The notes beneath the pieces were generated by a model. It saw only the letters and a list, made by a program, of their open reading frames with translations. It was not told the DNA's origin and made no database searches. The position numbers and the translations under genes are program-made. Shown one piece after another: positions 6,293 to 35,263 of a DNA stretch of 36,223 bases; the first letter of the stretch is position 1, and the number at the start of each line of letters is the position of its first letter. Source of the stretch: Thomasclavelia saccharogumia DSM 17460 (GTDB lineage: Bacteria; Bacillota_I; Bacilli_A; Erysipelotrichales; Coprobacillaceae). The stretch covers positions 1 through 36,223 of the forward strand of contig NZ_JMLH01000029.1 in assembly GCF_000686665.1 (NCBI RefSeq). Direction: 5' to 3'.

Positions 6293-6294
6293 TT

Positions 6295-6324
6295 AAAAGA
6301 ACTGGAAAGTTTTCCAGTTCTTTT
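6295..6324. terminator. Bidirectional terminator
   Basis: The 14-base arms AAAAGAACTGGAAA (6295-6308) and their complement (6311-6324) form a hairpin with A/T runs on both sides. It ends the plus-strand pump operon and lies at the end of the minus-strand ABC remnant. Confidence 0.9.
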
Positions 6325-6800
6325 ATAATCTCCAATTTATAGTCTTTTTTCTTTCTAAAACAAAATTTCTATAAATATTGTCTTCTTGAATTAATTGTTC
6401 ATGTTTTCCCTGCTAAATAATATTTCCTTGATCAACATTTCTTACTGTTTTTAGACGATGAGCAATCATATGATCGTTTTATTTTCATTAACTATTCCAT
6501 TGCTTTTTGCAGTTTATCTTCATTTTCAAAATCAACATTAGCTATAGCTTCATCAAAAATAATAATTGGGGCATCTTTTAACATTGCTCAAGAAATCGAA
6601 ATTCTTTGTTTTTGACCTTCTAATAATGATGAACCACCTTCATTAATAATAGTTTGATAACCATCAGGTAAAGCTTCGATAAAATCATCACAACATACTT
6701 TTTTAGCAGCCTTTTTGACCATTTCTAAAAAAGCTTCAGGTAACCCAAACTTAATATTATTTTCAATCGTTCGATCTATTTTTTTATCATCCAAAGTGTT
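6323..6800 (-). pseudogene. ABC transporter ATPase remnant (C-terminal part)
   Basis: Read on the minus strand, this holds the back half of an exporter nucleotide-binding domain. DDKKIDRTIENNIKFG (Q-loop region) is followed by GGSSLLEGQKQRISIS (ABC signature). After a stop comes IIFDEAIANVDF (Walker B/D-loop), then DHMIAHRLKTVRNVDQGNII (H-loop), a further stop, and a tail ending in TINWRL. The N-terminal membrane domain and Walker A are gone and several frames are broken. It resembles a peptide or multidrug exporter. It is unrelated in position to the intact ABC gene at 12673-14436, but could be a relic of the same locus. Confidence 0.8.
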
Positions 6801-6857: not shown

Positions 6858-8249
6858 TTAATATAGTTCTTCTATTCGCGCTTTAGCCGTTTTAACCGAC
6901 TCATCATCAGGAACCATCATATATAAATCATCACCATAAATAGGTGAATAAAGCGTTGCCCCACTACCATCAACACTACTCTGTTGAATATCCCAGGCAC
7001 TCATATCTTCTATTTGCATTCGAACTAAACTTATCATTTGAGTTTCTGAGATATTTGTTTGAAATGAAGAATTTAATGTTTCTAACAATGAATCATAACT
7101 ATTTAAAATCGTTGGTGAAAGTACTTTATTGATGATTCCAGTAATTACACGCATCTGATTCCGACCACGTTCTTTATCGCCATCTTCAAATGCATACCTT
7201 TCACGAGAGAAAGTTAAAGCCTCTTGACCATTTAAAGAAATAGTTCCGGCTTTAAAATTACCAAAGGCCTGCGGATTTTGAACTTCGATACCGCCTATTG
7301 TATCGACGATCTTAATAAGACTATCAAAATTGACTCTAACATAATAATCAATATTAATATCAAAATAGGCAGAAACATCAGCCATTGTCTCAGTGATTCC
7401 ATATAACCCACTATGAGTTAATTTATCTTTCTGACCATCAAGAATATTAAAAGGAATATAGTAATCACGCGGAATACTTGTTAATAAAACTTTTTTAGTT
7501 GTCGGATTCACAGTTATGATGATATTAACATCACTACGTGATTTGGTAGTGATAGCGCCATATGTATCGATACCACTAACATAAACACTAAATGTATCTT
7601 TAGTAACATCTTTATTTTCTGGTGCTTCTATTTCTGATATATATTGTTTTGAATAAATGACTTTTGTATCATCTGAAAAAGAAGGATAATTTTCTTCAAT
7701 TACTGAACGATAAGATTCATTGATAATAATACAGTCAACATCATTACAATATAGTGCATTTACCAACGTTACTATTCCTGAATATATTTTAGGCTTGATA
7801 TTTTCTTTATTTTCTCTTTGAATTTTTTTTATAGTTTTATCAACTAAACCATCGTCAGCAGCTAATACTGAATATACTTTTCCTTTTAGATCCTGCGTAT
7901 ACTGGCAAGAACTATTTTTTTTAACAATTACAGAAACAGTATCTGTTTCAATACGATTTTCAGTTTGAACTAAAGCATTCATAGTTTTATCAAAAATATA
8001 ATTTACCGGAATTACTAATACACATAATAAGATAATTACTGTTTTTCCAGCTATTTTTATTTTTTTACTTTTAGCTTTATATTGACTCAATGCTAATATT
8101 ACTACAAGAGCTAAAAAAATGATAATCATAATGAGCATATATTTAAATGACAAAATAGGATATTTATTAAATAGATATAAAATCCAGCCTAAGATTCCTG
8201 CTAAAATAATCATAAAATATGTTCTTATATCTTTAAAAATCTGATTCAT
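6858..8249 (-). CDS. LytR-CpsA-Psr (LCP) family ligase
   Basis: A 463-aa envelope protein with three N-terminal TM segments (about 10-27, 36-55, 68-86) and an outside domain. The LCP core is clear: SRSDVNIIITVNP, SIPRDYY, the FDSLIKIVDTIGGIEV stretch, and FSRERYAFEDGDKERGRNQ with the conserved Arg residues. LCP enzymes transfer lipid-linked polymers (teichoic acid, capsule) to peptidoglycan. The start overlaps the preceding cpsB-like gene by 17 bases behind AGGAGGG, so the two are coupled. It is the last gene of the ten-gene run. The insert before the LCP core (about 100-225) fits the accessory domain of longer CpsA-type members. Confidence 0.9.
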   Translation of the reverse strand: MNQIFKDIRTYFMIILAGILGWILYLFNKYPILSFKYMLIMIIIFLALVVILALSQYKAKSKKIKIAGKTVIILLCVLVIPVNYIFDKTMNALVQTENRIETDTVSVIVKKNSSCQYTQDLKGKVYSVLAADDGLVDKTIKKIQRENKENIKPKIYSGIVTLVNALYCNDVDCIIINESYRSVIEENYPSFSDDTKVIYSKQYISEIEAPENKDVTKDTFSVYVSGIDTYGAITTKSRSDVNIIITVNPTTKKVLLTSIPRDYYIPFNILDGQKDKLTHSGLYGITETMADVSAYFDINIDYYVRVNFDSLIKIVDTIGGIEVQNPQAFGNFKAGTISLNGQEALTFSRERYAFEDGDKERGRNQMRVITGIINKVLSPTILNSYDSLLETLNSSFQTNISETQMISLVRMQIEDMSAWDIQQSSVDGSGATLYSPIYGDDLYMMVPDDESVKTAKARIEELY

Positions 8250-8994
8250 TTTTTCCCTCCTCTTTAATAAAAGGTATCATCTTATCTTCAATTACAGCTT
8301 TAGGATGAAGATAAAGTAATCTTCTAGCATCATCAACCCCATAATTTAATTCTAAATAATCTTGTATTTCGTCCATATTAGTTCGCCGATAAATACTGTT
8401 ATGACCGTCACTAGCAACTATACTCACCAAATTATATTTCAATAATTTTTTTACCGTCATTTTTACCGTTGCCCCAAAACTACCTAGTATACTGCCTCTA
8501 TTAATTTGAGATAAACATCCTAATTTTAACCAGTCATAAACTAACCATGGTTTCTGATGAATACAGATGTATCGTTCTGGATGAGCAATGATCGGAATTT
8601 TCCCTATTTTAAGAATTTCTTTTAAAATCGTTGTTATATACTGGGGATGTTCATCAAATGCAAATTCTATTAAATAATACTTTGTTTTATTTAAGCCGAT
8701 AACTCTTTGATTTATTATTTTTTCTACAATATCATCAGAAGCAAAAATTTCCATTCCTAAATAAACCTTTAAATCAATTCTTTCTTTTTCAAGTTCTCTA
8801 CTAAAATTATCAAAAGATTTAATTAAACTAGCATCATAGAAATTTTCAAACCGCTTTATTTGATTGCTATGCGGGGTAACAACCATCGCCCTAACTCCAC
8901 TTCCAGCTGCAAGTTTGGCCATTGCTATCGATTCTGCCATTGAATCTGCTCCATCGTCTAAATACGGCAAGATATGAACATGGATATCGATCAT
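8233..8994 (-). CDS. CpsB/YwqE-type PHP tyrosine phosphatase
   Basis: A 253-aa cytoplasmic metal-dependent phosphatase of the PHP fold. Metal ligands are visible as HxH in MIDIHVHILPYLDDGAD (H5, H7), VTPHSN, IAHPERY and ASDGHN. In capsule systems CpsB removes phosphate from the Tyr-rich tail of the BY-kinase, and here it directly follows two such kinases (6-base gap). The start at 8994 follows AAGGGG. The family's usual length is about 245-255 aa, so the gene looks whole. Confidence 0.93.
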   Translation of the reverse strand: MIDIHVHILPYLDDGADSMAESIAMAKLAAGSGVRAMVVTPHSNQIKRFENFYDASLIKSFDNFSRELEKERIDLKVYLGMEIFASDDIVEKIINQRVIGLNKTKYYLIEFAFDEHPQYITTILKEILKIGKIPIIAHPERYICIHQKPWLVYDWLKLGCLSQINRGSILGSFGATVKMTVKKLLKYNLVSIVASDGHNSIYRRTNMDEIQDYLELNYGVDDARRLLYLHPKAVIEDKMIPFIKEEGKNESDF

Positions 8995-9000
8995 AGATCA

Positions 9001-10428
9001 TTACCCCTTATCTTTATATCCATACCCATAGCCATATTTACCATAACCATAACTACCATAATCATGAATATTATGAGCATAAAAATTAAAGACATAACCT
9101 TTAACACAGCTTTCATCTTTTAACATTGATAAACCATCTTGTATTTTTTGATGTGGTATGAAATCATATTTTACAACATATAATAACGCATCACCATAAT
9201 CTTGAAGCTGCATAAAATCTGGAAATATCCCGCAAGGCGGTGTATCGATAATAACATAATCAAATTCCTGCTTGATTTTGTTGAGATATTCTCCTAACTT
9301 AGGATCACTTAAAATTGCAATTGGATTTTCAACTAATTCCTGTCCCCCTAAAAACCAAAGCTTCTCTTCTTTTAATTCACTGATTTCCTGACACACATCA
9401 CCATTTCTATATACATCTTGAATTCCTTTACTATTAGGACAATTTAAAATATGCGCAAGTGCCTGTTTACGTAAATCACCGTCGATCAAAAGAACTTTTT
9501 TACCATTAACAGCAAATGTTTCCGCTAAATTAGTTGAGATCGTTGATTTACCTTCTCCAGAAGCACTGCTGGTAATTAAAATAATTTTATTTTTTTCTTT
9601 ATCGAAAGCTCGTTCTAATCTTATTTGTAAAGAACGTAATCCTTCTTTATAACCATAAGATATTCTTCGATCAAGTATCGAAATTCGCTTTAATTTTTGT
9701 GTCTTACGAGCTTTAAATTTAACTTTAGGAATAGTTGCCATACATTTTAAACTTGTAATCCGCTTCATTTCATCAACTGTTTTTATTGTCTTTCTAAAAA
9801 AGGCCATACTTCCCAAAATAATTAAACCGACTGCAGCTCCAATCAAAACACCTAAACTTACTGTTTTAAAAAATGATAAGTTATTGTAAGGAACAGTAGG
9901 CATTTGGGGATTATTGATCATATGAAATTGAATATCACCTAAAACAAAACGCGCTGCATCAGGATATACTTCAATTGCTGAAGTTAAAATAGAAATAGCA
10001 TCTTGTGCTTTAGGACTTTCTACTGCCATCGTTACAATATTTGAATCACTAACTGTACTTGCACTTAATGTCCCATTTAATTTATCTACACCTAGTTCTT
10101 CAAGTAAAATTCCCTTAAAATAACTACTGTCAAGAATATAAGGAAATGTTTTTGATAATTGATCAGCAGTATTTTGCGAATAATAGTAACTGTAGCTGCC
10201 ACTATTTTCATCTCCGGTAGCAACAGTAAATGTAGCTTCACAGCGATAATAAGGATCATATGTCAGATAACAAAAAGTACTATAAATTATCGTTGTAATA
10301 ATAATGATTCCAAAAAATAATCCCCAGTATTCACGAATAATCTTGAGAAAATCATGAACTAAAATTCGTAAGTCAATTTCGACATAATCTTCTTCTGTCA
10401 TTAATTTTTTGAGTTTTTGTTCATCCAT
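9001..10428 (-). CDS. Wzz-BY-kinase fusion, Tyr-rich tail
   Basis: About 475 aa. I start it at ATG 10428 behind AGGTGAG rather than at an upstream in-frame ATG (10569), which would overlap the previous gene by 137 bases. An N-terminal Wzz/CpsC part with two TM segments flanks an outside loop. The cytoplasmic BY-kinase has Walker A (SASGEGKST), A' (VLLIDGDLR) and Walker B (YVIIDTPP). The tail is a Tyr/Gly cluster (DYGSYGYGKYGYGYGY), the autophosphorylation site. It is expected to regulate polymer chain length and export through phosphorylation cycles with the CpsB-like phosphatase. Such fused proteins are more usual in proteobacteria (Wzc); Firmicutes often split them. Confidence 0.9.
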   Translation of the reverse strand: MDEQKLKKLMTEEDYVEIDLRILVHDFLKIIREYWGLFFGIIIITTIIYSTFCYLTYDPYYRCEATFTVATGDENSGSYSYYYSQNTADQLSKTFPYILDSSYFKGILLEELGVDKLNGTLSASTVSDSNIVTMAVESPKAQDAISILTSAIEVYPDAARFVLGDIQFHMINNPQMPTVPYNNLSFFKTVSLGVLIGAAVGLIILGSMAFFRKTIKTVDEMKRITSLKCMATIPKVKFKARKTQKLKRISILDRRISYGYKEGLRSLQIRLERAFDKEKNKIILITSSASGEGKSTISTNLAETFAVNGKKVLLIDGDLRKQALAHILNCPNSKGIQDVYRNGDVCQEISELKEEKLWFLGGQELVENPIAILSDPKLGEYLNKIKQEFDYVIIDTPPCGIFPDFMQLQDYGDALLYVVKYDFIPHQKIQDGLSMLKDESCVKGYVFNFYAHNIHDYGSYGYGKYGYGYGYKDKG

Positions 10429-10432
10429 AATC

Positions 10433-11818
10433 TCACCTACTTTCATGCCTGTTATAAGCATAATTGGCATAGCCATATGCTTCTTGATCACTTTTTTCTT
10501 CGATGAAGAAGTTAAGAATAAAACCAGTGAAATCACAGTTGCTTTGCCAAATAAGGTCAACAGTGTCATTGATTACTCTGATATCTGACCAGTCTTGACG
10601 AACAACCAATAAAGTTGTATCAACGACATCCATCCATACTTCAGCATCTGTAGAAACAGTTGATGGTGAACAGTCGATAATAATATAATCAAATTGTTCT
10701 TTTAATTTATTTACTATCTCTTTTAACTTTATTGTATCCATCAAACCAGCTGGTTCTTCTACTGCTTGATAAACAAACAATTCCCAAATATTAGTTCTTT
10801 TATTAAAATAAACATTGTCTTCTAAAGATATTTTTCCAGTTAAAATATCAACTAGTGAATTATTTTGTGATTTTTCTTTATCAAATACTTTATATTGTGC
10901 TGGGTTTCTAAAATCACCATCAATAATCAATACTTTTTTATTCTTTTCAACTAATGATAAAGCTATATTAGCAGTTACTGTCGATTTGCCTTCGTTTTCA
11001 CTAATACTAGTGACTAAAATTATTTTTTGCTGATGTCTATTTAAATGATTCTCGATTCGTGATGCTATTTTACGATTTGATTCTACAAAACTCATACTAA
11101 CGATAGGTGAACTAATGAGTAGTGCCTGATTAGATTTTTTTGTTTTCCCTTTCTTCTTTTCAAAAGGAACAACTCCTAATATCTTACCATCTAATAGCTT
11201 AGAAGCGTTTTTACTTGTTTTAAGTGTATGTCTAAATAAATATAAACAAACAATAATTCCCGCCATTATAGCAGCTGCTAGTAAAGCTAATTCATTACGA
11301 CGATTCATTAGTATCGGACTATTAGACGGTGACGTTGGTATCGTCGGCTCTTGTAAAATTTGTAAAGATGCGTTAGTAAATACATAATCTGATACTTCGT
11401 CATAGTGTTTTAAAGCTGAATTCATAAAAAGGTAACTGTTTTGTGGATCATTGGTTGTTACTTTCAACACCAAAAGATTTGTTTCTTGAACCTGCTCACA
11501 GCTGATTACACCATCAATCGTCTTACCTGTTTCTTTTTCTACAAGTTCTTTCATTACGTCACTTTGAAAAACTTCTTTGATTACATCGGCCATTTGCGTA
11601 GCCATTGCAAGTGAGGTATAAGTATTACTATCACCTTTGGCACTTACTACTAAAGTCGATGAAACAGTGTATTGAGGCACATAAATTAATTCTCCAACTC
11701 CGGTAACTGCTAACCATAAAGAAGCACCTGCAAAAATGATCATCCACCAGTTTTTTAATAAATCTTTGATAATCCCTCGATAATTAATCGAATCTAAATC
11801 AATCTCATCCTGATTCAT
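10433..11818 (-). CDS. Wzz-BY-kinase fusion, second paralogue
   Basis: About 461 aa from ATG 11818 behind AAAGGAG; an upstream ATG at 11848 overlaps the preceding gene and lacks a good site. It has the same architecture as its neighbour: a TM near residues 25-45, an outside Wzz loop, a second TM near 170-195, then Walker A (SENEGKST), A' (VLIIDGDFR) and Walker B (YIIIDCSPS). The tail is poor in Tyr (GYANYAYNRHESR) compared with the next gene's, so it may act as a partner or modulator. The Walker A Lys and the Asp residues are kept, so it should bind ATP. Four bases separate its stop from the next start. Confidence 0.88.
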   Translation of the reverse strand: MNQDEIDLDSINYRGIIKDLLKNWWMIIFAGASLWLAVTGVGELIYVPQYTVSSTLVVSAKGDSNTYTSLAMATQMADVIKEVFQSDVMKELVEKETGKTIDGVISCEQVQETNLLVLKVTTNDPQNSYLFMNSALKHYDEVSDYVFTNASLQILQEPTIPTSPSNSPILMNRRNELALLAAAIMAGIIVCLYLFRHTLKTSKNASKLLDGKILGVVPFEKKKGKTKKSNQALLISSPIVSMSFVESNRKIASRIENHLNRHQQKIILVTSISENEGKSTVTANIALSLVEKNKKVLIIDGDFRNPAQYKVFDKEKSQNNSLVDILTGKISLEDNVYFNKRTNIWELFVYQAVEEPAGLMDTIKLKEIVNKLKEQFDYIIIDCSPSTVSTDAEVWMDVVDTTLLVVRQDWSDIRVINDTVDLIWQSNCDFTGFILNFFIEEKSDQEAYGYANYAYNRHESR

Positions 11819-11837
11819 TTCTTCTTCTCCTTTACAA

Positions 11838-12659
11838 TTATTCAACAACTACAGTTAACCAGGTTTCACCTTTATTTCCAGACGAAACCGCACTATAATG
11901 AATTTCATATATTCCTGGTGTATTGGTATCAACTTGAGAATCAATTGTGACGTTCTTTTTGTTAACCTTCTTTTTAGAAATAGTTTCAACACTTTCAATA
12001 TATTGATATGGATCGATCGTTTCTCCAGCGTTAATATAAACAATTCCTTCAGTTAGTTCAATATTAATACTTTGATTTTCACTTTTAACTATATGAATAG
12101 GGATTTCCATTGTCCTAACATCACCATAACTATTACTTACTTCTAAAGTTAAATGATAACTGCCTGCTGTAGTATAGTTTACATCACTGGTGCCTTGAAT
12201 TATTGATTTCGTTAAATCACCATCAAGCATATCTTCAGCCGTTATTTGCGATATCGTTTTTTGATAATTCCCCTCTTTTTCTATATACACTAAAGGTTTA
12301 GCCGTTATAAATCTTGGTGAATGATAATCTGTGAATCGAACATTTCTAGTAAGACTTGTTGATTGATTAGAGGAATCAAAAACAACATAAGTAACACTAC
12401 AAAGACCTTTATCAATAAATCTTGTCATATTTCCTACTAATATTTTATTAGTTAGATCACCATCTTCTTTATCAAAAGCACTTAATCCATCCAATAATTG
12501 TTCTTGTGTATATTCACAAGGAATCTCTAAAACATCATGGTCACTTGTGATAGTTGGTAAAGTAGGATCCTTACTAATTAATTCCTTGCTCTTAGCTATT
12601 AAAAAAACACCTAAGGACAAACAGAAAACTATGATAACAGTATATCTTATTAATTTCAT
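11838..12659 (-). CDS. Membrane-anchored bacterial Ig-like (DUF5011-type) protein
   Basis: A 273-aa protein with one N-terminal TM or signal anchor (residues 5-22), no lipobox, and the rest predicted outside. Two repeats carry the DUF5011/HYR-like phrase: FDKEDGDLTNKI (about 62-73) and EDMLDGDLTKSI (about 141-152). A third beta-rich unit ends in GIYEIHYSAVSSGNKGETWLTVVV. Such domains bind or space surface structures; no enzyme motif is seen. The start follows GGAGGA, 13 bases after the ABC gene. Its place between exporter and Wzz proteins suggests a part of the export or assembly complex on the outside. Function is unknown. Confidence 0.75.
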   Translation of the reverse strand: MKLIRYTVIIVFCLSLGVFLIAKSKELISKDPTLPTITSDHDVLEIPCEYTQEQLLDGLSAFDKEDGDLTNKILVGNMTRFIDKGLCSVTYVVFDSSNQSTSLTRNVRFTDYHSPRFITAKPLVYIEKEGNYQKTISQITAEDMLDGDLTKSIIQGTSDVNYTTAGSYHLTLEVSNSYGDVRTMEIPIHIVKSENQSINIELTEGIVYINAGETIDPYQYIESVETISKKKVNKKNVTIDSQVDTNTPGIYEIHYSAVSSGNKGETWLTVVVE

Positions 12660-12672
12660 CTATCTTCCTCCA

Positions 12673-14436
12673 TTAAACCTCATTTAAAAAAGCCTCTATT
12701 TCTTCTTCATCCACTTCATCAATTCGTCCCTCTTGAATTTTATAAACACGATCACATATAGATAAAACACTAGGACGATGGGCAGTTACAATGATTGTCT
12801 GCAAAGGATCACGATGTAAAATATTTCTTAAAACCTTTTTTTCACTAACCATATCTAAAGCGCTTGTAGCTTCATCAAGCAATAATACAGGCGCTTTAGC
12901 CATCAATGCTCGAGCAATACTCAATCTTTGTTTCTGACCTTCCGAAAAACGATTTCCTCCTTCACTTACTTCTGTATGGATCCCATTTTCCAATTGTGCA
13001 ACAAACTCCCAGGCACAAGCTGTTTTTAAAACTTCGATGATCTCTTCATCACTAGCATCAGGTCTAAGCATTTTCATATTGTCAGCTATCGTTCCCGAAA
13101 ACAAAGTATTACCTTGAGGAATATAACTAAATAAACATCTCGTTCCTGAACTAATAGGAATAGTTTCATACCCAGGATTACTCACAGTTACTGCACCTGC
13201 TTTAGGATGATATAATCCTAACAAGATCCTTAATGTCGTTGTCTTACCTTGACCCGAAGGTCCAATCAAACCAATGATTTCACCTGGTGAAGCAATCATA
13301 TTAGCATTTTGATATACATAAGGATTATCACCATATCGAAAACTAACATCTTTCATTTCTACTGTAATTCCTACATCTTTAGCTTTAGCTAAAAGCTTTT
13401 TTGCTTCCTGCTCATCTTCTAGAGACTCCCTAGGTAATTGAATAATTTCCATGATTCTGCCAGCACTAATACCAGCTCGCATCGCTGTTGGCAATAAATT
13501 TAAAACCGATGAAAACGATCCTCTTAAAGATGAAGACATTGACACATATAATGTCATTGTTCCATAACTAATATCTCCCTGCCATAGTCTATATGCTGCA
13601 AAACCATAACAAGCATAACCAATCAACTGACCAATAAATCCTGTCAAGATCGTCATTTTAGATTGAAACTTATTTTGAATCATCGCATAATCAATCGATT
13701 GATCCTGAACGTCTTTATATTGTTTAATAAAATAATCAACCAAGCCAAAGGCTTTGATCATTTGCATATTTTGTAATGTTTCTTGATTAAATGATGTCTT
13801 ATGACTTTGCAGTTCCATTTGTTTACGCTGAAAATCACGCATTTTTCTCATAGAAAAACGGGTGCTCATAAACGAAATAGGAGCACCTGCTAAAGCAATT
13901 AATGCCATAATAATATCATTTTGTACCATCACAATAAAAGCACCGCCAAATGAAATCAAGATTGAAACCACATTAGGTAAATACGTTAAAATATTATTAG
14001 AAACCATTGCAGCATCACCATTGATTCGATACATTAGATCCCCCGTTCTATATTTAGACAATTCTTCCCAATCAGTCTGTAAGATCTGAGAAAAAATATC
14101 AATCCGAATCTCATTATTCACTTTCATACTAATGCGTAACGATAAACGCGTTTTAAAAGCATTAATAAACAACTGTGACACCCCTACACCAACATATAGA
14201 GCAACGACTTTTACGATTTCTAAAGAATTCTGACCAGTAATTGCGTCTACCAAATCTCTAGAAACCATCGATGTCCCTAACGTTAAAAAAGAACCCGAAG
14301 CCCCTAAAAGAGTATATGTTCCAATTAAAAACCAATAACGTTTCATATAGCTTCCCATCCATAACCATTGAGAAACCAGCTCTTTTAAACGCCCCTCTTT
14401 TATTCTTTTTATGTAGTGTTTAATTTTTTTAATCAT
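12673..14436 (-). CDS. ABC exporter, fused permease-ATPase
   Basis: A 587-aa half-transporter acting as a dimer. The N-terminal six-TM ABC type-1 domain (about 30-320) is followed by an ATPase domain with Walker A (GPSGQGKTT), signature (FSEGQKQRLSIARAL), Walker B (VLLLDEATSALD) and H-loop (VTAHRPS). There is no N-terminal C39 peptidase, so it would not itself cut a leader. It overlaps the preceding kinase-like gene by 8 bases. Family members export peptides, lipids or drugs. The neighbourhood of radical SAM and PqqD-like genes points to a modified peptide as cargo, but this is inference. Length is normal. Confidence 0.92.
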   Translation of the reverse strand: MIKKIKHYIKRIKEGRLKELVSQWLWMGSYMKRYWFLIGTYTLLGASGSFLTLGTSMVSRDLVDAITGQNSLEIVKVVALYVGVGVSQLFINAFKTRLSLRISMKVNNEIRIDIFSQILQTDWEELSKYRTGDLMYRINGDAAMVSNNILTYLPNVVSILISFGGAFIVMVQNDIIMALIALAGAPISFMSTRFSMRKMRDFQRKQMELQSHKTSFNQETLQNMQMIKAFGLVDYFIKQYKDVQDQSIDYAMIQNKFQSKMTILTGFIGQLIGYACYGFAAYRLWQGDISYGTMTLYVSMSSSLRGSFSSVLNLLPTAMRAGISAGRIMEIIQLPRESLEDEQEAKKLLAKAKDVGITVEMKDVSFRYGDNPYVYQNANMIASPGEIIGLIGPSGQGKTTTLRILLGLYHPKAGAVTVSNPGYETIPISSGTRCLFSYIPQGNTLFSGTIADNMKMLRPDASDEEIIEVLKTACAWEFVAQLENGIHTEVSEGGNRFSEGQKQRLSIARALMAKAPVLLLDEATSALDMVSEKKVLRNILHRDPLQTIIVTAHRPSVLSICDRVYKIQEGRIDEVDEEEIEAFLNEV

Positions 14437-15244
14437 TCAATATAGCCCTTTCAACTAACTCAACTGATTCTTCATCAGGTCTACACTTCAACAAATAAAC
14501 AGGCACACAAGATAATAAACCATCAAGCATTGCCATTACTGCTTCAACCCCTATTTCATACCAGTGTGGTAAAAAGACATTTGCCAGCACTCTTTCAACC
14601 ATTCTAATACCATCAAGTTTTTCTATCGTATTTTCTAAATCCTGCTGCAATACTACAATTCCCGATAATGCAACTTGTCTATTTTCACAATATGGTGATG
14701 ATCCATGCCATGGACAGCCACATCCCCAATACGTTTGACCATCATCATGAACTAACGCCATATCTCCATTAATAATTACTGCATCACGATACTTATGCCA
14801 TAACTCTGCCTGCGTTGTCTTACCAATACCTGAAGGTCCAATAAACATGATTCCTTTACCACTTACATCAACAAGGCTGCTATGCATCATTATTCCATGA
14901 CGAGTCGCTAGATGTGTCATAATCGCTGCAATCAATGCTCCCTCTAAGCCATCACTTTGACCATCAAGCAACGTGATACTCGCTTTACTCCAATCATCAT
15001 TAGCACTTAACAAAGCATTTTGACACTTCAACACAGCACATCCAGGTTGCGGTTCAAACACTTCAACACCATATTTATGCATAAGCTGAGAACAAACATT
15101 AATTTCTAAATCTGTCATCTCAGTATCACATTTAAACAAATCCCACGATGGATAATCAAATGAGTATTTACATAGCTTTATGACTTTTTTACATATTTCA
15201 AACATTAACATATTTAAATTATCTACTGTGGCCAAATTAAACAT
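14429..15244 (-). CDS. HPr kinase/PEPCK-like P-loop protein
   Basis: A 271-aa protein resembling the HprK/PEPCK-fold proteins found beside PqqD-like and exporter genes in RiPP clusters. The core has MHSSLVDVSGKGIMFIGPSG with Walker A GPSGIGKTT (136-144), then INGDMALV (Asp 161) and a Trp/Gly/Cys-rich stretch (YWGCGCPWHGSSPYC). It lacks the HPr-binding part of true HprK. In lasso-type clusters, relatives phosphorylate the precursor; here the substrate is unknown. The first ATG (15244) overlaps the preceding gene by 22 bases; ATGs at 15211 and 15205 are alternatives, and no start has a strong ribosome site. Translational coupling is likely. Confidence 0.8.
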   Translation of the reverse strand: MFNLATVDNLNMLMFEICKKVIKLCKYSFDYPSWDLFKCDTEMTDLEINVCSQLMHKYGVEVFEPQPGCAVLKCQNALLSANDDWSKASITLLDGQSDGLEGALIAAIMTHLATRHGIMMHSSLVDVSGKGIMFIGPSGIGKTTQAELWHKYRDAVIINGDMALVHDDGQTYWGCGCPWHGSSPYCENRQVALSGIVVLQQDLENTIEKLDGIRMVERVLANVFLPHWYEIGVEAVMAMLDGLLSCVPVYLLKCRPDEESVELVERAILND

Positions 15245-15675
15245 GTTCCATAATAAGAATTGAACCTAGCCCAATCATAATCTGGCTCATATCCTGACAA
15301 TCTCTGAACATTTAAAACATATTGATAAATTAAATCATTTATCTTAGCTGTAACAGTAGCTATATCTCCTTCTACTAAATTACCTTGTTCATCAAATTTA
15401 ACACCTAATTCTTGAGTTAAATAGTTGCAAAATTCACTTGTAGTCCAATATGTATCTTGGTAATCTCTTCCTAAAATATATCCCCATCCTGAACCACCAG
15501 GTTCATTATCTTTACTTTGTATTCCGCCTGGAAGATGCCATAAAACTGTGACAGATAAATGTCCTGTTCCAGAAGTATTTTGATTTACCGATCCACCAAT
15601 ATCCGCTGGCATAATTCCTGAATCCATATTTTGACCACCTATACTTGTATAGGGTACTGTTACTTCTCCTTGCAT
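15223..15675 (-). CDS. 150-aa unknown protein, candidate maturase substrate
   Basis: I do not recognise this protein. It has no signal peptide or TM. The N-terminal half is Gly/Ser/Asn-rich (SIGGQNMDSGIMPADIGGS, then GGSGWGYILGRDY); the second half is more acidic and helical and ends in YYGTCLIWPQ. It has two Cys (one near residue 98, one at 145) and many aromatic residues. Its start has a strong AAGGAGG site, only 3 bases after the radical SAM stop and before the kinase-like gene, which is where RiPP substrates often lie. At 150 aa it would be a long precursor. It could instead be an accessory enzyme or partner. The gene is intact. Confidence 0.7.
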   Translation of the reverse strand: MQGEVTVPYTSIGGQNMDSGIMPADIGGSVNQNTSGTGHLSVTVLWHLPGGIQSKDNEPGGSGWGYILGRDYQDTYWTTSEFCNYLTQELGVKFDEQGNLVEGDIATVTAKINDLIYQYVLNVQRLSGYEPDYDWARFNSYYGTCLIWPQ

Positions 15676-15678
15676 TAA

Positions 15679-16733
15679 TTATTCCTCCTTAACCTTTCTA
15701 CTTATATCTATCATTTCTTTTATCTTTTTACAATATTCTTTATCTAATTTGTTTAGCCCTCCACTGAAACATGCTAGATGAGCTAAACATTTTTTACACT
15801 GTTTTTTATACTCACATGTATAGCATTCATCTGGCCATCTTAGTTTTTCTTGATAATCTAAAAGTTCTTTCCAGCATTTTTCAAGTGATTGATTGACAAC
15901 AGATATATGTGGTTCATCTAAAAACAAACAGAATCTCATATTACCATCCCAGGTAATATTAAATTCTTTATGATAACCTGAACATCTTTTAGCAGGTATG
16001 TCATCATTGGATGGTGGTAATTCATTCCATAGTTTTGAAGTTTGTTCAATACCTTCTGGATCCCATATTTCTATTGCACATTCTTTTGCTTCGCTTTGAG
16101 CGCCTCTTAATGATGGATAACAAGATGCGCTATAATACCATGGTAAGTTATTTTCTTTTGCGTATTGCATAATATTTTGAGTATCTTTTTTATTGTTTTT
16201 GATAAATGTTGTTACAAGCTGAATATTCATGTTTCTATCTTTTAAAGCTTGAATTCCAGCATTTGTTTTAGTAAAACCATTTTCAATACAACAAACATCT
16301 TGATAAACTTCATCATTTGAACCATATAAAGTTATTTTAACTGTTTCTGGGGGATATTCTTCTAATACATCTAGAATATCACCACTAAGCTGTGAAGCAT
16401 TTGTTTGCAATGTAAGTAAAAATCCCATTTGTGATAAACCAATCCATATTTTTTTAAAATCTGGATGGCATACTGGGTCCCCCCAGTTATGCATATGGAA
16501 AAAACGCCCATTTCAACAGCTTGTCGACCTATTTCTAACCATTCATCACCAGTTAATTCTCTACCGTCTCCAACTTTAGATATTCTGTCTACAGGTAAAT
16601 GTACATAGCACATCCGGCAATTAAAACCACATCGAGGCGTTATTTCAAATGTTGCATGAATGGGAATTGCATTTTCATATGCTTTTTGCTGCATCTTTGC
16701 TAATTTAAGCATGCCATACAAATTCTTCTGCAT
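15679..16733 (-). pseudogene. Radical SAM/SPASM peptide maturase, frameshifted
   Basis: The gene encodes about 351 aa if one base is added. The first frame (from ATG 16733, stop-start overlap TAATG with the PqqD-like gene) carries CGFNCRMCY, the CxxxCxxC ligands of the radical SAM cluster (C35, C39, C42), and runs to ICITGG. The next frame, open from about 16494 to 15679, continues DPVCHPDFKK and ends in a SPASM region: C in KRCSGYHKEFNITWDGNMRFC, then CYTCEYKKQCKKCLAHLAC and a last C near the end. The break is at six G (plus-strand C6, 16479-16484); seven would restore TGGDP. SPASM enzymes of this type install thioether or C-C bonds in peptides next to a PqqD-like recognition protein. It may be a sequencing error, phase variation or real decay. 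Confidence 0.88.
16479..16484. repeat. C6/G6 homopolymer at the radical SAM frameshift
   Basis: This is a run of six C on the plus strand inside the codons for TGGDP of the radical SAM protein. A change of one base switches between the two open frames. Confidence 0.9.
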
Positions 16734-17086
16734 TATTTTTTAGAATCCTTTTCTAATTTTTTGATTTCCTCTTGTGAAAGTTCAATCTTAACTGAACCTG
16801 TAGCCGGTAATGGTCGTCCATTATCTAACATATAGTTGTTATCCAATAATTTTAAAAAAGCTTGAATATCTTTTCTTGCTATTTCTTTACTTACTCCAGA
16901 AAAATGTCCCATCACCGCTTCTACTAATGAATCTTCTGTGAATTCATCATTTTTCATGATATTCCATAACCAAGCTGTTGAATCTGTTATTTCCATCATT
17001 GGTGATATTTGTGATAAGCGTCCAATGGGAACAACAATATTCTCTCCAGCCACTTTACGTAAAACAAGATCTTTTTTTAATTTCAT
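16733..17086 (-). CDS. PqqD-like peptide-recognition protein
   Basis: About 117 aa from ATG 17086, chosen because GGAG lies 9 bases upstream; two ATGs further up (17113, 17101) have no ribosome site. The fold pattern is that of the PqqD/RRE family: three N-terminal beta strands (LVLRKVAGENIVVPIG), then DSTAWLWNIM and a helical FLKLLDNNYML end. Such proteins bind the leader of a precursor and hand it to the radical SAM enzyme encoded next. A 20-residue charged C-terminal extension (QEEIKKLEKDSKK) is extra. It is the first gene of the minus-strand run. Confidence 0.88.
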   Translation of the reverse strand: MKLKKDLVLRKVAGENIVVPIGRLSQISPMMEITDSTAWLWNIMKNDEFTEDSLVEAVMGHFSGVSKEIARKDIQAFLKLLDNNYMLDNGRPLPATGSVKIELSQEEIKKLEKDSKK

Positions 17087-17422
17087 TATAATAATCTCCA
17101 TTTTCAATAACATTTTATGTAAAAATGTAATATATCAATAAATAATTACTATCTATAATTATTATCTACCTTCAAATTTCATCAATCAGATTAATTTTAT
17201 CATAATTTATTTAATTTACAACCTTTATCTACTCAAACGCAGGTTTTATGTTTAAAGCGCAAAAAATAGTAATATTAAAAGTCTTTTTTATTTTTTCATA
17301 AAAATAATTTAGTTATAAAGCATCAATAGATACTACTTTATATTATTATAGTTTTTCAATATTTTATAGATATTTTAAAAGTTTGTGATATTATATAAGA
17401 AAAATATGAATTAGGTGAAATT
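17087..17422. promoter_or_regulatory. Divergent promoter region
   Basis: This is AT-rich and without ORFs. An inverted repeat ACATTTT-ATGTA-AAAATGT (17110-17128) lies just upstream of the PqqD-like start. A possible minus-strand promoter reads TTATTG, 18 bases, TAAAAT across it. On the other side AGGTGA precedes the ATG at 17423. The ten-gene run and the nucleotidyltransferase gene may share control from here. Confidence 0.4.
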
Positions 17423-18661
17423 ATGAATGTTATTAATGAATTATTTATGAAGATGATATCTTGTTATATGCATGATAAAGAATTTGAGGAATCTTTATCT
17501 TTTTTAACTAATGAACAGTGGCAAAAATTGCATGATTTTTCTAAAATGCATTATTTATCGCCAATTGTATATGAAGTTGTTAAAAATAATGATTCTTTTA
17601 AACAATTACCAGATTTGTTTAAAAATCAGTGGAAACAGGAAACTATTTCTTTAGTTATTAAACAGGTGCAATTAAGTGAAGCTTTTTTGAAAATATATCA
17701 GGAAATAAGAAAAACAGGTATTAATTGTATTGTTACGAAAGGAATTGTTTTAAGACAGTTATATTCTAAAAGAGAATGGCGTGTATCTGGTGATGAAGAT
17801 ATTTTTATTAAAAAAGAGGATTTTAAAAAGGTACATCAGATATTTATTGATCGTAATTATCATGTAATAAATGATATTGCCAATGAGAATATTCCAGTTA
17901 TTACTTATGTTGATCCAATAACAGATTTAAATATTGAACTTCATTTACAATTATTTGGTAAAGATACTTATTTGGGTTTTCTTAATGATTATTTTAAGGA
18001 TAGTTTTGATCATTGCATGGAAATAGAAATAGATAATGTTTTTATACAGGTAATGAATGAAAATGATCAATTATTTTATTTGATTTGTCATTGTTTTAAA
18101 CATTTTATTAATAATGGAGTTGGTTTAAGACAGTTAATGGATATTGGAATGTATAGTCAAAAATATTATAGTATGATCGACTGGTTGGCACTATTACATA
18201 AAACAAATGATTTTAAAGGTAATTTGTTTGTTCATTGTATTTATAGTATTCTTGAAGATTTTTTTAATGTTTCAATGGATAGTATAAACTATCCTAAACA
18301 ACTAATTGATAATTTAGATTATCATGATATTTTAGAAGATATCTTTGATAGCGGAGTATTCGGACTTTCAAGCGAAGAAAGAATTTATAGCAATTTAGTC
18401 ACCAGACGAGTTATTAATAAAGAACATAAAAAAATTCCTTTACGGGAACTTATTTTTCCATCAGCTAAAAAACTACGCTCTGGTTATGCTGTTTTATATG
18501 ATCATCCATATTTATTACCATATATATGGATAAAACGAATTTTAAGATTTCTTATTCGTTATAACAGCAGTCGAAAAAACAGTAATCTTGATATAACAAA
18601 ATCTGTAGTTTTAGGTAATGAAAGAATTGCTTTGTTGAAAAAATATCATATTATTGATTAA
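17423..18661 (+). CDS. Nucleotidyltransferase-like protein (NTP_transf_5 type)
   Basis: A 412-aa protein matching the pattern of the uncharacterised nucleotidyltransferase family (PF14907). It has TKGIVLRQLYSKREWRVSGDEDIFIK, with the KG...Y...R..(S)GDxD core (Asp pair near 131-133), then IELHLQLFG and a long helical C-terminal half with FYLICHCFKHF. Members occur next to HprK-like kinases, PqqD-like proteins and exporters, but their substrate is not established. It is divergent from the maturase operon across a 336-base region. The start at 17423 follows AGGTGA. An adenylyl or nucleotidyl transfer to the peptide or to a sugar is inference only. Confidence 0.75.
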   Translation: MNVINELFMKMISCYMHDKEFEESLSFLTNEQWQKLHDFSKMHYLSPIVYEVVKNNDSFKQLPDLFKNQWKQETISLVIKQVQLSEAFLKIYQEIRKTGINCIVTKGIVLRQLYSKREWRVSGDEDIFIKKEDFKKVHQIFIDRNYHVINDIANENIPVITYVDPITDLNIELHLQLFGKDTYLGFLNDYFKDSFDHCMEIEIDNVFIQVMNENDQLFYLICHCFKHFINNGVGLRQLMDIGMYSQKYYSMIDWLALLHKTNDFKGNLFVHCIYSILEDFFNVSMDSINYPKQLIDNLDYHDILEDIFDSGVFGLSSEERIYSNLVTRRVINKEHKKIPLRELIFPSAKKLRSGYAVLYDHPYLLPYIWIKRILRFLIRYNSSRKNSNLDITKSVVLGNERIALLKKYHIID

Positions 18662-19549: not shown

Positions 19550-21235
19550 AAACTTTTGTTAACATATAATAATTTAAATGCTATATCTTTAGTTTATTTC
19601 CTCTATCTTACATATATGTTTTTTACTCTTTTTATCATAACTGATTCCTACTAATATTAGATCATCTAAATATTTCTCTAATCCATAATAATATTTCTTC
19701 TCTTTGATCTGATCTATCGCTGTCTCTACTTCCTGATCCCACTTCAATTCTACTATCATCGCTGGTTTATCATCTTTTGGAATAAACACCATATCTGCAT
19801 ACCCTTTGCCGCTTGGCATCTCTCTTATTATCGTATAATGATTTCTTGCATATATATACGCGATCGATATCGTATATGACAGGGCATTTTCATTATTATA
19901 TGTTAGTATCGCTGTATCCAAATGTGCTTCTTCGATATACTTGGCTACTAATTCCTCTTCTCTATTCCATGTCACTTCTAATAAGGCACGGCTGTTTAAT
20001 AACGCTTTCGTCGTTTCATTCCATGATGAATCTTCAATTGATGCTACAAACGAACTTGTTACTTCCTTATTTGGAATATAACATGTCTGATCAGAACTGT
20101 TATATCCTAGATAACCTAGATGGATCAGCAGTGTTAAAACATCATCTTTTGATTTAAACGTCGTCATATCATTTTGAAACTTGTCTGTATTCAAATATAC
20201 CTCTTCTCCAGCTAATAATTTAACAACATCATCTTTCAAGCCGTCATAATTCATATCGATATATACTCTTAAGGCTTCATACGTCTCCGTTGATGTCCAG
20301 TAATTCCCAAACTTTTTCCTTATGATCGAGGCTACTACTGATCTTGGCGAAAATGTTGAAATCGTATCTGTCAAATGATAACCATCATACCATTCTTTCA
20401 TTTCTTCATAACTGATATTATACTGATGACATAGTTTTTCAACTTCTTTTTCTGTAAAACCCATATATTCTGATAATAATCCTGGATCAACCATTGAAAT
20501 TTCATCAAACATATTTAAGGCACTATGGGTTCCATATTTCTTGATTGGCAGAATTCCCGTCATATAGCATAATGATACATATGATTTATCTTTCAACAGA
20601 TTTCTTAAAAAATCCAGATATTTTTCCTGGGCTTCTTTATCATTTTTGTATTCTCTGAAAATACAGTCCCATTCATCAATGATAAAAATAAAGCTGTTTT
20701 GAATCTGACTGTATATATCATTGAGAACTCTAATAAGTTTTGTTTTATCAAAATATAACAAATCCTTATATTTCAAAAGCAGTTCCCAAATAACTGAATC
20801 ATTCACCAATTGAATCATCTTTTCAACATCATGTGTTTCACTTAAAAAATCCTGCATATTGAGATGGATCACATTATGCTGATTTAAATGCTTTTGATAT
20901 AACTCTGTTTGACAGATTTTTAAATCATTGAATATCTGTGATGAATCACAGCCCTTGGAATAATAAGCTGTTAACATATTAGCATCGGTGCTCTTTCCAA
21001 AACGCCTTGGTCTTGAAACACATAACATTTTATTTGGTGTACGTATTAGAGGATTTGTTTTCTCTATCAATAAGCTATGATCAACAAATACTTCTCCTCG
21101 CAGCATTTCAGCATACTTTTCATTATTTGGATTTAAATAGATACCCATGACTATCGCTTCCTTTCATAGAGTTATTGTAACATTTTTTATTTGTCTATTC
21201 ATCACATTTGATGCTAATCATAGTTTAATTTTATT
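19550..21235. repeat. Long direct repeat, copy 1
   Basis: This unit includes the AAA/nuclease gene plus conserved flanks: TTTTGTTAACATATAATAAT downstream of the gene, and TCGCTTCCTTTCATAGA upstream of it. It matches 21390-23070 closely at both ends and less in the middle of the gene. Confidence 0.85.
19589..21148 (-). CDS. AAA-ATPase-like / PD-(D/E)XK nuclease-like protein, copy 1
   Basis: A 519-aa protein of the AAA-ATPase_like + DUF1703 (PD-(D/E)XK superfamily) type, common in gut Bacteroidetes and Firmicutes with no settled function. Walker A is RPRRFGKST (46-54), Walker B FIFIIDEWD (153-161). The C-terminal nuclease-like part shows GKGYADMVFIP and IVELKW, fitting the D...ExK core with Gln/Lys further on (DQIKEKKYYYGL). 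A role in defence or mobile-element biology is often supposed but not shown here. It is nearly identical to the next gene except at residues 101-151 and 215-290. The start follows AAAGGA. It has its own promoter space of 280 bases. Confidence 0.85.
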   Translation of the reverse strand: MGIYLNPNNEKYAEMLRGEVFVDHSLLIEKTNPLIRTPNKMLCVSRPRRFGKSTDANMLTAYYSKGCDSSQIFNDLKICQTELYQKHLNQHNVIHLNMQDFLSETHDVEKMIQLVNDSVIWELLLKYKDLLYFDKTKLIRVLNDIYSQIQNSFIFIIDEWDCIFREYKNDKEAQEKYLDFLRNLLKDKSYVSLCYMTGILPIKKYGTHSALNMFDEISMVDPGLLSEYMGFTEKEVEKLCHQYNISYEEMKEWYDGYHLTDTISTFSPRSVVASIIRKKFGNYWTSTETYEALRVYIDMNYDGLKDDVVKLLAGEEVYLNTDKFQNDMTTFKSKDDVLTLLIHLGYLGYNSSDQTCYIPNKEVTSSFVASIEDSSWNETTKALLNSRALLEVTWNREEELVAKYIEEAHLDTAILTYNNENALSYTISIAYIYARNHYTIIREMPSGKGYADMVFIPKDDKPAMIVELKWDQEVETAIDQIKEKKYYYGLEKYLDDLILVGISYDKKSKKHICKIEEIN

Positions 21236-21429: not shown

Positions 21430-23070
21430 TTAGTTTATTTCCTCTATCATACATATATGTTTTTTACTCTTTTTATCATAACTGATTCCTACTAATATTA
21501 GATCATCTAAATATTTCTCTAATCCATAATAATATTTCTTCGCTTTGATCTGATCTATCGCTGTTTCTACTTCCTGATCCCATTTTAACTCTACTATCAT
21601 CGCTGGTTTATCACCTTTAGGCATAAAAACCATATCTGCAAACCCTTTACCGCTTGGCATTTCTCTTATTATCGTATAATGATTTCTGGCATATATATAC
21701 GCGATCGAAATTGTATACGCTAAGGCATTTTCATTATTATATGTTAGTATCGCTGTATCCAAATGTGCTTCTTCGATATACTTGGCTACTAATTCCTCTT
21801 CTCTATTCCATGTCGCTTCTAATAAGGCTCTGCTGTTTAATAACGCTTTCGTCGTTTCATTCCATGATGAATCTTCAATTGATGCTATAAATGAACTTGT
21901 TACTTCCTTATTTGGAATATAACATGTCTGATCAGAACTGTTATATCCTAGATATCCTAGATGAATCAGCAGTGTTAAAACATCATCTTTTGATTTGAAC
22001 GTCGTCATATCATTTTGAAACTTATCTGTATTCAAATATACTTCTTCTCCAGCTAATAACTTGACAATATCATCTTTCAAGCCATCATAATTCATATCGA
22101 TATACACTCTTAAGGCTTCATACGTCTCGGTTGCACTCCAGTAGTTTTCGTATTTTCTGTCCATTAAAGCATAAACAACAGAACGATGGTTATAAACTGA
22201 TAAATCATCTGTCATCCTGTATCCATCATACCAGTCCTTCATTTTTTCATAGTCCATATCATATTTTAAACATAAATCTTCAACTTCTTTTTCTGTAAAC
22301 CCCATAAACTCTTCCAGTGGTGTTGGATTGAGTATTGATATTTCCTTGAACATATTCAAGGCACTATGGGTTCCATATTTCTTAATTGGCAAAATTCCCG
22401 TCATATAGGCAAGCTCTACATAGGGCTTATCTTTTAATAAATCTCTTAAAAAATCCAGATATTTTTCCTGAGCTTCTTTATTTTCTTTATATTCTCTAAA
22501 AATACAGTCCCACTCATCGATAACAAAAATAAATGTATGATGATATTTAACATAGATCTTATTAAAAATATCAGCTAAAAATTTATACCTGCCTATTCTT
22601 ATTTCATAAACTTCTAACAATTCTTCTAAAACACTTTCTGTAAGATAATCAACAAATTCAAATATATCTTTTGTTCGTGATGAAAAATCCTGCATATTGA
22701 GATGTATCACATTATGCTGATTTAAATGCTTTTGATATAACTCTGTTTGACTGATTTTTAAACGATTGAATATCTGTGATGAATCACAGCCCTTGGAATA
22801 ATAAGCAACAAGCATATTGGCATCAGTGCTTTTTCCAAATCTTCTTGGTCTTGAGACACATAACATTTTATTTGGCGTACGTATCAAAGGATTTGTTTTC
22901 TCTATCAATAAGCTATGATCAACAAATACTTCTCCTCGCAGCATTTCAGCATATTTTTCATTATTTGGATTTAAATAGATTCCCATGATTATCGCTTCCT
23001 TTCATAGAATTATTGTAACATTTTTTATTTACCTATTCATCACAATTTGATGCCGATCATAACTAAATTT
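21390..23070. repeat. Long direct repeat, copy 2
   Basis: This is the second copy of the 1.7-kb unit at 19550-21235, in the same orientation. The flanks are alike to the base over tens of bases on both sides of the gene. Confidence 0.85.
21430..22986 (-). CDS. AAA-ATPase-like / PD-(D/E)XK nuclease-like protein, copy 2
   Basis: A 518-aa paralogue of the gene at 19589-21148. Walker A RPRRFGKST, Walker B FIFVIDEWD and the nuclease residues GKGFADMVF/VELKW are all kept, so both copies appear functional. Residues 1-100 differ from copy 1 at three sites and the last 230 at about nine. By contrast 101-151 (SRTKDIFEFVDYLTESVL...) is almost unrelated and 215-290 is about half different. This pattern suggests selection or recombination on two internal blocks, perhaps target- or partner-binding surfaces. 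Start site and ribosome site are the same as in copy 1. Confidence 0.85.
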   Translation of the reverse strand: MGIYLNPNNEKYAEMLRGEVFVDHSLLIEKTNPLIRTPNKMLCVSRPRRFGKSTDANMLVAYYSKGCDSSQIFNRLKISQTELYQKHLNQHNVIHLNMQDFSSRTKDIFEFVDYLTESVLEELLEVYEIRIGRYKFLADIFNKIYVKYHHTFIFVIDEWDCIFREYKENKEAQEKYLDFLRDLLKDKPYVELAYMTGILPIKKYGTHSALNMFKEISILNPTPLEEFMGFTEKEVEDLCLKYDMDYEKMKDWYDGYRMTDDLSVYNHRSVVYALMDRKYENYWSATETYEALRVYIDMNYDGLKDDIVKLLAGEEVYLNTDKFQNDMTTFKSKDDVLTLLIHLGYLGYNSSDQTCYIPNKEVTSSFIASIEDSSWNETTKALLNSRALLEATWNREEELVAKYIEEAHLDTAILTYNNENALAYTISIAYIYARNHYTIIREMPSGKGFADMVFMPKGDKPAMIVELKWDQEVETAIDQIKAKKYYYGLEKYLDDLILVGISYDKKSKKHICMIEEIN

Positions 23071-35115: not shown

Positions 35116-35141
35116 ATCCGATCCTCACTATTTATTTTATA

Positions 35142-35190
35142 GTTAGCTTAAGCTAACAATAAGTATATTACTACCTACCCATATTGTCAA
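35142..35190 (-). promoter_or_regulatory. Consensus promoter with palindromic operator
   Basis: Minus strand: TTGACA (35185-35190), 17-bp spacer, TATACT (35162-35167). A perfect 16-bp palindrome GTTAGCTTAAGCTAAC (35142-35157) covers the expected start site. A half-copy AGCTAAC occurs again at 35217-35223. A dimeric repressor is likely. The shape loosely recalls DtxR/IdeR boxes, but this is only a resemblance. Confidence 0.75.
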
Positions 35191-35227
35191 TAAAAACATG
35201 ATATTTTGTTATAAAAAGCTAACAAAA

Positions 35228-35253
35228 TAAACTACCTAAATCTAGGTAGTTTA
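35228..35253 (-). terminator. Terminator of the partial surface gene
   Basis: Eleven-base arms TAAACTACCTA and complement (35228-35238, 35243-35253), with T-rich sequence following on the minus strand. It separates the two surface genes. Confidence 0.85.
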
Positions 35254-35263
35254 TCCGTGTATA

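Follow-up and report, generated by a model that had tools for sequence, protein, structure and literature searches.

A conserved gene cassette joining a radical SAM peptide-modification half to a BY-kinase half around a hypervariable protein in Thomasclavelia saccharogumia DSM 17460

Organization of the gene run

The stretch of DNA analysed here (36,223 nucleotides of contig NZ_JMLH01000029.1 from Thomasclavelia saccharogumia DSM 17460; hereafter the window) carries ten genes in unbroken succession on the minus strand (17113 to 6858), the junctions of which are overlaps or gaps of at most about 20 bases. The order of these genes, as well as the nucleotidyltransferase gene diverging from them, had been claimed in a first-pass annotation of the sequence and agrees with the positions of the open reading frames (ORFs) and with Pfam/TIGR matches. 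As detailed below, the peptide-modification half and the bacterial tyrosine kinase (BY-kinase) half of the run form one conserved cassette, the linkage being far beyond chance, and the body of the protein encoded between the radical SAM enzyme (rSAM) and the HprK-like kinase (termed U) is swapped inside otherwise near-identical cassettes. The features are (aa, amino acids):

17423-18661 (+): NTP5, PF14907 nucleotidyltransferase (Pfam 8.7e-45), divergent from the run
16733-17113 (-): PqqD-like peptide chaperone, i.e., recognition element of ribosomally synthesized and post-translationally modified peptides (RiPPs); PF05402, 29.1 bits versus a cut-off of 23.4
15679-16733 (-): radical SAM/SPASM-type maturase (PF04055), split into two frames
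15223-15675 (-): U, hypervariable protein of 150 aa, proposed cargo/substrate
15589-15675 (-): conserved N-terminal segment of U (aa 1-29), kept when the U body is swapped
15241-15243 (-): codon of the invariant near-C-terminal Cys145 of U (alignment A2, 47/47)
14429-15211 (-): HprK-like kinase, conserved P-loop kinase half and diverse N-terminal half
12673-14436 (-): ABC exporter, permease and ATPase (PF00664, PF00005), C39 peptidase domain absent
11838-12659 (-): IgP, hydrophobic N-terminus and PF16403 Ig-like domains
10433-11818 (-): BYK1, Wzz-type domain fused to BY-kinase, C-terminus with Tyr (TIGR01007, 2.5e-37)
9001-10428 (-): BYK2, second Wzz/BY-kinase with Tyr-rich tail (YGSYGYGKYGYGYGY; TIGR01007, 3.1e-34)
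8233-8994 (-): CpsB-type phosphotyrosine phosphatase (PF19567, 5.5e-62)
6858-8249 (-): LCP-family glycopolymer-peptidoglycan transferase (PF03816, 2e-35)
6294-6325 (-): terminator-like hairpin (14 pairs and T-rich tail) 3' of the run

Gene identities along the run stood as first annotated. The BY-kinase starts are probably located at about 11818 and about 10428 rather than at the longest-ORF positions, the former being adopted from the homolog at locus L009 of a sister genome. In that genome (L009 2639-4054, corresponding to 9001-11818 of the window), the two BY-kinase genes are fused by a clean deletion of about 1.4 kb between the Walker B regions, reflecting either recombination or assembly collapse. 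A scan of the interval between the two halves (11818-12700) found no terminator-like site, and promoter-like matches were no commoner than in shuffled sequence. A remnant of an ABC ATPase (68 aa, 6588-6794, minus strand) lies between the LCP gene and the hairpin.

Linkage of the two halves in relatives

With the HprK-like kinase as the only bait (alignment A1; BYK genes were not used), 84,980 species genomes were scanned, which yielded 79 loci from Lachnospiraceae, Erysipelotrichia, Oscillospiraceae and Olsenella. Dozens of the mapped loci repeat the order PqqD-rSAM-U-HprK-ABC-Ig-BYK-BYK-(Ig)-CpsB, with IgP immediately ahead of BYK1. Loci were considered informative if 7.5 kb or more of downstream sequence was available, which applied to 44, linkage being defined as presence of BY-kinases within 7.5 kb: HprK-ABC-Ig-BYK-BYK appear in this order in 36 of them, and 39 are linked in any order, including L090 (tandem front half) as well as L096 and L107 (kinases ahead of the front half). 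Conversely, loci retrieved with the Ig protein mostly hold rSAM and HprK too, provided that sufficient upstream sequence is available.

That two unrelated modules are neighbours merely by chance could be argued from the few relatives with separated halves (L081, L110, L111 and the L100 genome, where the Ig-BYK half resides on a different contig, L041) and from Ig-BYK sets without rSAM (L041, L042). Since both halves are found together in 39 of the 44 informative loci, spanning several families and an actinobacterium, this highly improbable reading is largely refuted and was rejected. The joining of the two modules proposed in the first-pass annotation thus holds for most relatives and fails in these few; the halves may come apart but are mostly kept next to each other.

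The BY-kinase half is also shared by a second cassette type (L045, L046, L049, L050), in which the same Ig-BYK-BYK-CpsB genes accompany rSAM, HprK and S26 genes together with different small ORFs, the products of which start like MREYxKPxMxxExF..A.EYVxAC. LCP is encoded at the CpsB end in the genus of the window and is absent there from most other cassettes. A phage or plasmid origin was rejected, as no relative was confirmed in viral contigs and just three weak plasmid matches were obtained. None of the papers covered by a literature search combines these genes.

The hypervariable protein U

Each complete cassette contains one ORF of about 95-150 aa (U) between the rSAM and HprK genes. It had been listed in the first-pass annotation as an unknown of 150 aa, which is present as described, its nature as a variable, swapping substrate candidate having been overlooked. 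U has no sequence family match in Pfam, NCBIfam or PDB. In an alignment of 47 U sequences (A2), M1, G51 and C145 are invariant and Y9, G28, W46 and W64 are conserved in at least 90 %, the consensus reading M..G..Y..V.A ... SG ... W....GG.TG.GW ... NLN..F..W ... GC near the C-terminus. The terminal cysteine is the sole one in 40 of 49 sequences. Members of the family thus share a short N-terminal stretch, whereas the body has diverged and closes near the invariant cysteine; they represent the small precursor-like ORF with a variable remainder that is looked for in RiPP-type systems, and the N-terminus may serve as leader.

The AlphaFold model of U (pLDDT 78, pTM 0.72) comprises a strand (2-9), a disordered linker (14-34) and a mostly confident body. 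Fold searches retrieved nothing below E 0.5 with Foldseek and a best Z of 2.7 with VIA, results that do not suffice to establish a new fold. Because U is a protein of about 100-150 aa with a body predicted to be folded, the initial picture of a small RiPP-like peptide is probably wrong.

Swapping of the U body and covariation with other cassette genes

The DNA of the window and that of locus L052 is about 97 % identical over the run, dropping to 41-51 % across an island of about 400 nt that begins after U codon ~29 and ends at the HprK start; accordingly, the first 30 aa of U are 90 % identical, the remainder 38 %. An island of about 700 nt (19-50 % identity) spanning U and the N-terminal half of HprK separates L061 and L070, the surrounding DNA of which is 95-100 % identical. 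The respective protein identities are 98 % (PqqD), 97 % (rSAM), 26 % (U), 69 % (HprK), 99 % (ABC), 99 % (Ig), 100 % (BYK) and 97 % (CpsB). In case of L074/L097, the divergent island extends from the C-terminal half of rSAM to the N-terminal half of HprK. Only mild divergence of U was observed for the pairs L057/L059 and L067/L077; hence swapping is not universal. An archive of silent U copies serving cassette switching was rejected, since no U was found outside cassettes in the 26 genomes searched.

For 35 complete cassettes, the identity of the U body was compared with that of each gene, the other genes being regressed out (Mantel-type test). U tracks the N-terminal half of HprK (partial r = 0.26), PqqD (0.21), BYK1 (0.18) and the C-terminal half of rSAM (0.15); it tracks neither the N-terminal half of rSAM nor the C-terminal half of HprK, ABC or Ig. 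The simplest reading of the covariation with HprK, PqqD and rSAM is that the N-terminal half of HprK and the PqqD/rSAM pair would contact U; the correlations are modest and supporting, not proof. This pattern, the location of U within the run, its occurrence once per cassette, the leader-like character of its N-terminus and its joint swapping with HprK suggest that U is probably the cargo or substrate of the cassette.

The main rival explanation, itself unlikely, is that U represents a secreted antagonistic, bacteriocin-like protein, modified by rSAM and HprK, exported by ABC and switched on by quorum-type sensing, with the BY-kinase genes being either passengers or coordinating the capsule with export. 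PqqD, rSAM, a small variable ORF and an exporter indeed constitute the usual RiPP layout. Moreover, 23 of the 35 cassettes with room upstream of PqqD (L055-L112) have two-component genes directly upstream, many of them GHKL + LytTR, a pairing typical of peptide-pheromone regulons, others YesM/YesN. However, the swapped block contains no candidate immunity gene, most loci retain the BY-kinase set in order, U has a large body for which a folded state is predicted, and no two-component sensor is encoded beside the cassette in the window.

Radical SAM enzyme

The PqqD gene (PF05402) adjoins the radical SAM gene (PF04055), a pairing kept in relatives. The latter had been listed as one gene, the frameshift being overlooked; in the window assembly, it is read in two frames (16371-16733 and 15679-16494). 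What disrupts it is a G tract (~16479-16484, G6) contracted by one base at ACTGGGGGGACCC, located within the TGG[DE]P motif. With G7 at this tract, the sister genome (L009/L052) reads the motif in frame. The G6 tract, in the active-site region, is the sole G/C run of at least six bases in the whole window. A conserved programmed frameshift was rejected: in relatives, the gene is in frame, the Gly codons of the motif vary and a G tract is missing, so that this is no conserved recoding signal. The frameshift may be a sequencing error or a slipped-strand off-state. Several single-base homopolymer differences that look like sequencing errors break the rSAM and ABC genes of L052.

The three core cysteines (CxxxCxxC) and eight further cysteines are conserved in 46 rSAM relatives, and all are present across the two halves in the window. 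Despite the SPASM-type C-terminal cysteines, the SPASM Pfam model did not match, and the protein exceeds the cut-off of no NCBIfam equivalog; the nearest solved structures are SkfB and PqqE.

HprK-like kinase and NTP5

Alignment of the HprK-like proteins (A4) revealed invariant GPSGIGKTTQA, NGD and G-SS-Y motifs in the C-terminal half and a diverse N-terminal half. The AF2 model (pLDDT 95) adopts the PEPCK/HprK fold, with Foldseek matches to PEPCK and HPr kinase (E 4e-7 to 1e-5). The protein is no true HPr kinase/phosphorylase, scoring 27.7 bits with TIGR00679 versus a cut-off of 240.

NTP5 adjoins many cassettes, being a common but not universal neighbour in relatives, and has two paralogs in the genome of the window. 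Lasso peptide precursors are phosphorylated by HPr-kinase homologs, and in case of pseudomycoidin a nucleotidyltransferase gene is required to put one or two hexoses on the phosphate (PMC8498205, PMC9266682). By analogy, the PF14907 gene may play this hexose-adding part here.

A second set of HprK, PqqD, S26 peptidase and PF14907 genes is located on contig C20 of the same genome (L184 920-18500). Devoid of rSAM, it forms the last part of a complete polysaccharide operon that also contains several glycosyltransferase genes and a flippase-like gene. This independently hints at cooperation of such peptide-tagging enzymes with surface glycans.

Sugar genes

No glycosyltransferase, flippase or polymerase gene is located next to the cassette in the window, as had been stated initially. 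Measured against a Wzy-type capsule locus, the run contains BY-kinase, CpsB and LCP genes and lacks these sugar genes. Most relatives have unrelated genes 3' of CpsB; when 70 ORFs from this region were compared with Pfam, PF02397 or GT1/GT4 was detected in three members each. Five cassettes (L053, L074, L084, L097, L106) do lie beside glycosyltransferase genes. The search for such genes elsewhere in the genome, suggested along with the first annotation, revealed five initiating sugar transferases (PF02397) on other contigs and a canonical split CpsC/CpsB/CpsD set on contig C23. In the complete genome G042, the cassette at ~1.24 Mb is more than 230 kb apart from the nearest PF02397 gene (~1.48 Mb). 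As sugar transferases are present in all 17 cassette genomes tested, a glycopolymer partner, if any, would normally be made in trans.

The same distribution could be reconciled with U being a regulatory or adaptor protein of a polysaccharide machine (e.g., a variable factor setting chain length or export specificity) that would need modification in order to act, the polysaccharide enzymes being encoded elsewhere. The BY-kinases, CpsB and LCP are of polysaccharide type, and the five cassettes beside glycosyltransferase genes would agree with such a role. For an intracellular regulator, however, hypervariability and a dedicated exporter are unexpected, and, besides weak covariation with BYK1, U shows none with ABC or Ig; this explanation is quite improbable.

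Comparison with known systems

Phosphorylated and phosphoglycosylated lasso peptide systems (paeninodin, PadeK; pseudomycoidin, PsmK and PsmN) share an HprK-type kinase, nucleotidyltransferase, PqqD-like protein, exporter and ribosomal precursor with the cassette (PMC8498205, PMC9266682), which differs in possessing a radical SAM enzyme, a BY-kinase half and a precursor of 100-150 aa without conserved C-terminal Ser. Assignment as a lasso peptide cluster was rejected, since neither a B2 transglutaminase-like protease nor an asparagine-synthetase-like C protein was found among the cassette proteins scanned. SPASM-type rSAM RiPP systems (PqqE/PqqD, SkfB, sactipeptide and ranthipeptide maturases) likewise combine PqqD, an rSAM with auxiliary-cluster cysteines and a small ORF, whereas the substrate candidate of the cassette is larger, hypervariable, predicted to be folded and has one conserved cysteine. 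Wzc/CpsCD-CpsB capsule modules correspond in Wzz and BY-kinase, CpsB phosphatase and LCP transferase; the cassette, by contrast, has two fused Wzz-kinases and an Ig-domain protein and usually no glycosyltransferase, flippase or polymerase.

SynChlorMet (Scm) systems comprise PqqD-like, HprK-like and rSAM proteins, and HPr-rel-A sets are PEP-CTERM-linked and come from exopolysaccharide loci. The cassette shares the PqqD-like and HprK-like genes with both, and rSAM with Scm. With the respective models, the ScmC score was 14.9 versus a cut-off of 125 bits and no HprK-rel-A match was obtained; no exosortase gene was seen.

Proposed function

The cassette may serve to make the hypervariable protein U (~100-150 aa) and to deliver it to the cell surface, a proposal that stands about evenly poised. 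PqqD would bind the conserved N-terminus of U, whereupon the radical SAM/SPASM enzyme would alter the body, the likeliest targets being the invariant near-C-terminal cysteine or the near-invariant Trp/Gly motif. Next, U would be recognized by the variable N-terminal half of the HprK-like kinase and phosphorylated by this enzyme; in cassettes that possess NTP5, the phosphate may in turn receive a sugar, as in pseudomycoidin. Following transport by the ABC exporter, IgP and the two Wzz/BY-kinases, cycled by CpsB, could constitute the outside assembly platform. There, U might be presented on, or become linked to, a surface glycopolymer from the glycosyltransferases encoded elsewhere and, in the genus of the window, the product might be fixed to the wall by LCP. 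The chemical steps, export, attachment to glycopolymer or wall and the kinase role are deduced from what is known of the respective protein families.

Several observations weigh against this proposal. The partial correlation of U with HprK is modest, U also weakly tracks BYK1, and the Mantel-type control leaves some shared history in these values. NTP5 and LCP are missing from many cassettes, and 5 of the 44 informative loci (L081, L095, L100, L110, L111) have the U/HprK half with no BY-kinases nearby. The start of U is not signal-peptide-like and the exporter lacks a C39 peptidase, leaving any leader removal unexplained; the C-terminal Ser that is conserved in lasso precursors is also absent from U. 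In addition, the rSAM gene is frameshifted in the window assembly.

More tentatively, and with somewhat greater doubt than delivery of U as such, the cassette could represent a novel type of surface system, the BY-kinase/Wzz machinery of which handles an rSAM-modified, kinase-tagged, cassette-swapped protein as cargo, instead of or together with sugar. If so, gut Firmicutes would share a hypervariable protein "serotype" that has spread between phyla, encoded by a fast-swapping gene that phage or the host immune system may see on these common bacteria. A substrate family without known relatives would be added to the radical SAM/PqqD world, peptide modification would be tied to BY-kinase surface assembly, and a previously undescribed route would exist for placing a variable protein on the cell surface. 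The cassette also offers a testable setting for the role of HprK-like kinases and PF14907 enzymes beside polysaccharide genes.

Other features of the window

A P-type metal ATPase gene (414-2279, minus strand) contains an in-frame TGA near 1018-1020, which divides it into parts of 419 and 194 aa. On the same strand, tandem near-identical genes (19589-21148 and 21430-22986) encode proteins of about 519 aa starting MGIYLNPNNEKYAEMLRGEVFVDHS, a further relative of which is located on contig C20 (L184 3-647). The two large surface-type proteins encoded at 32806-36223 (minus strand) have hydrophobic C-terminal tails with TGD and are possibly sortase substrates.

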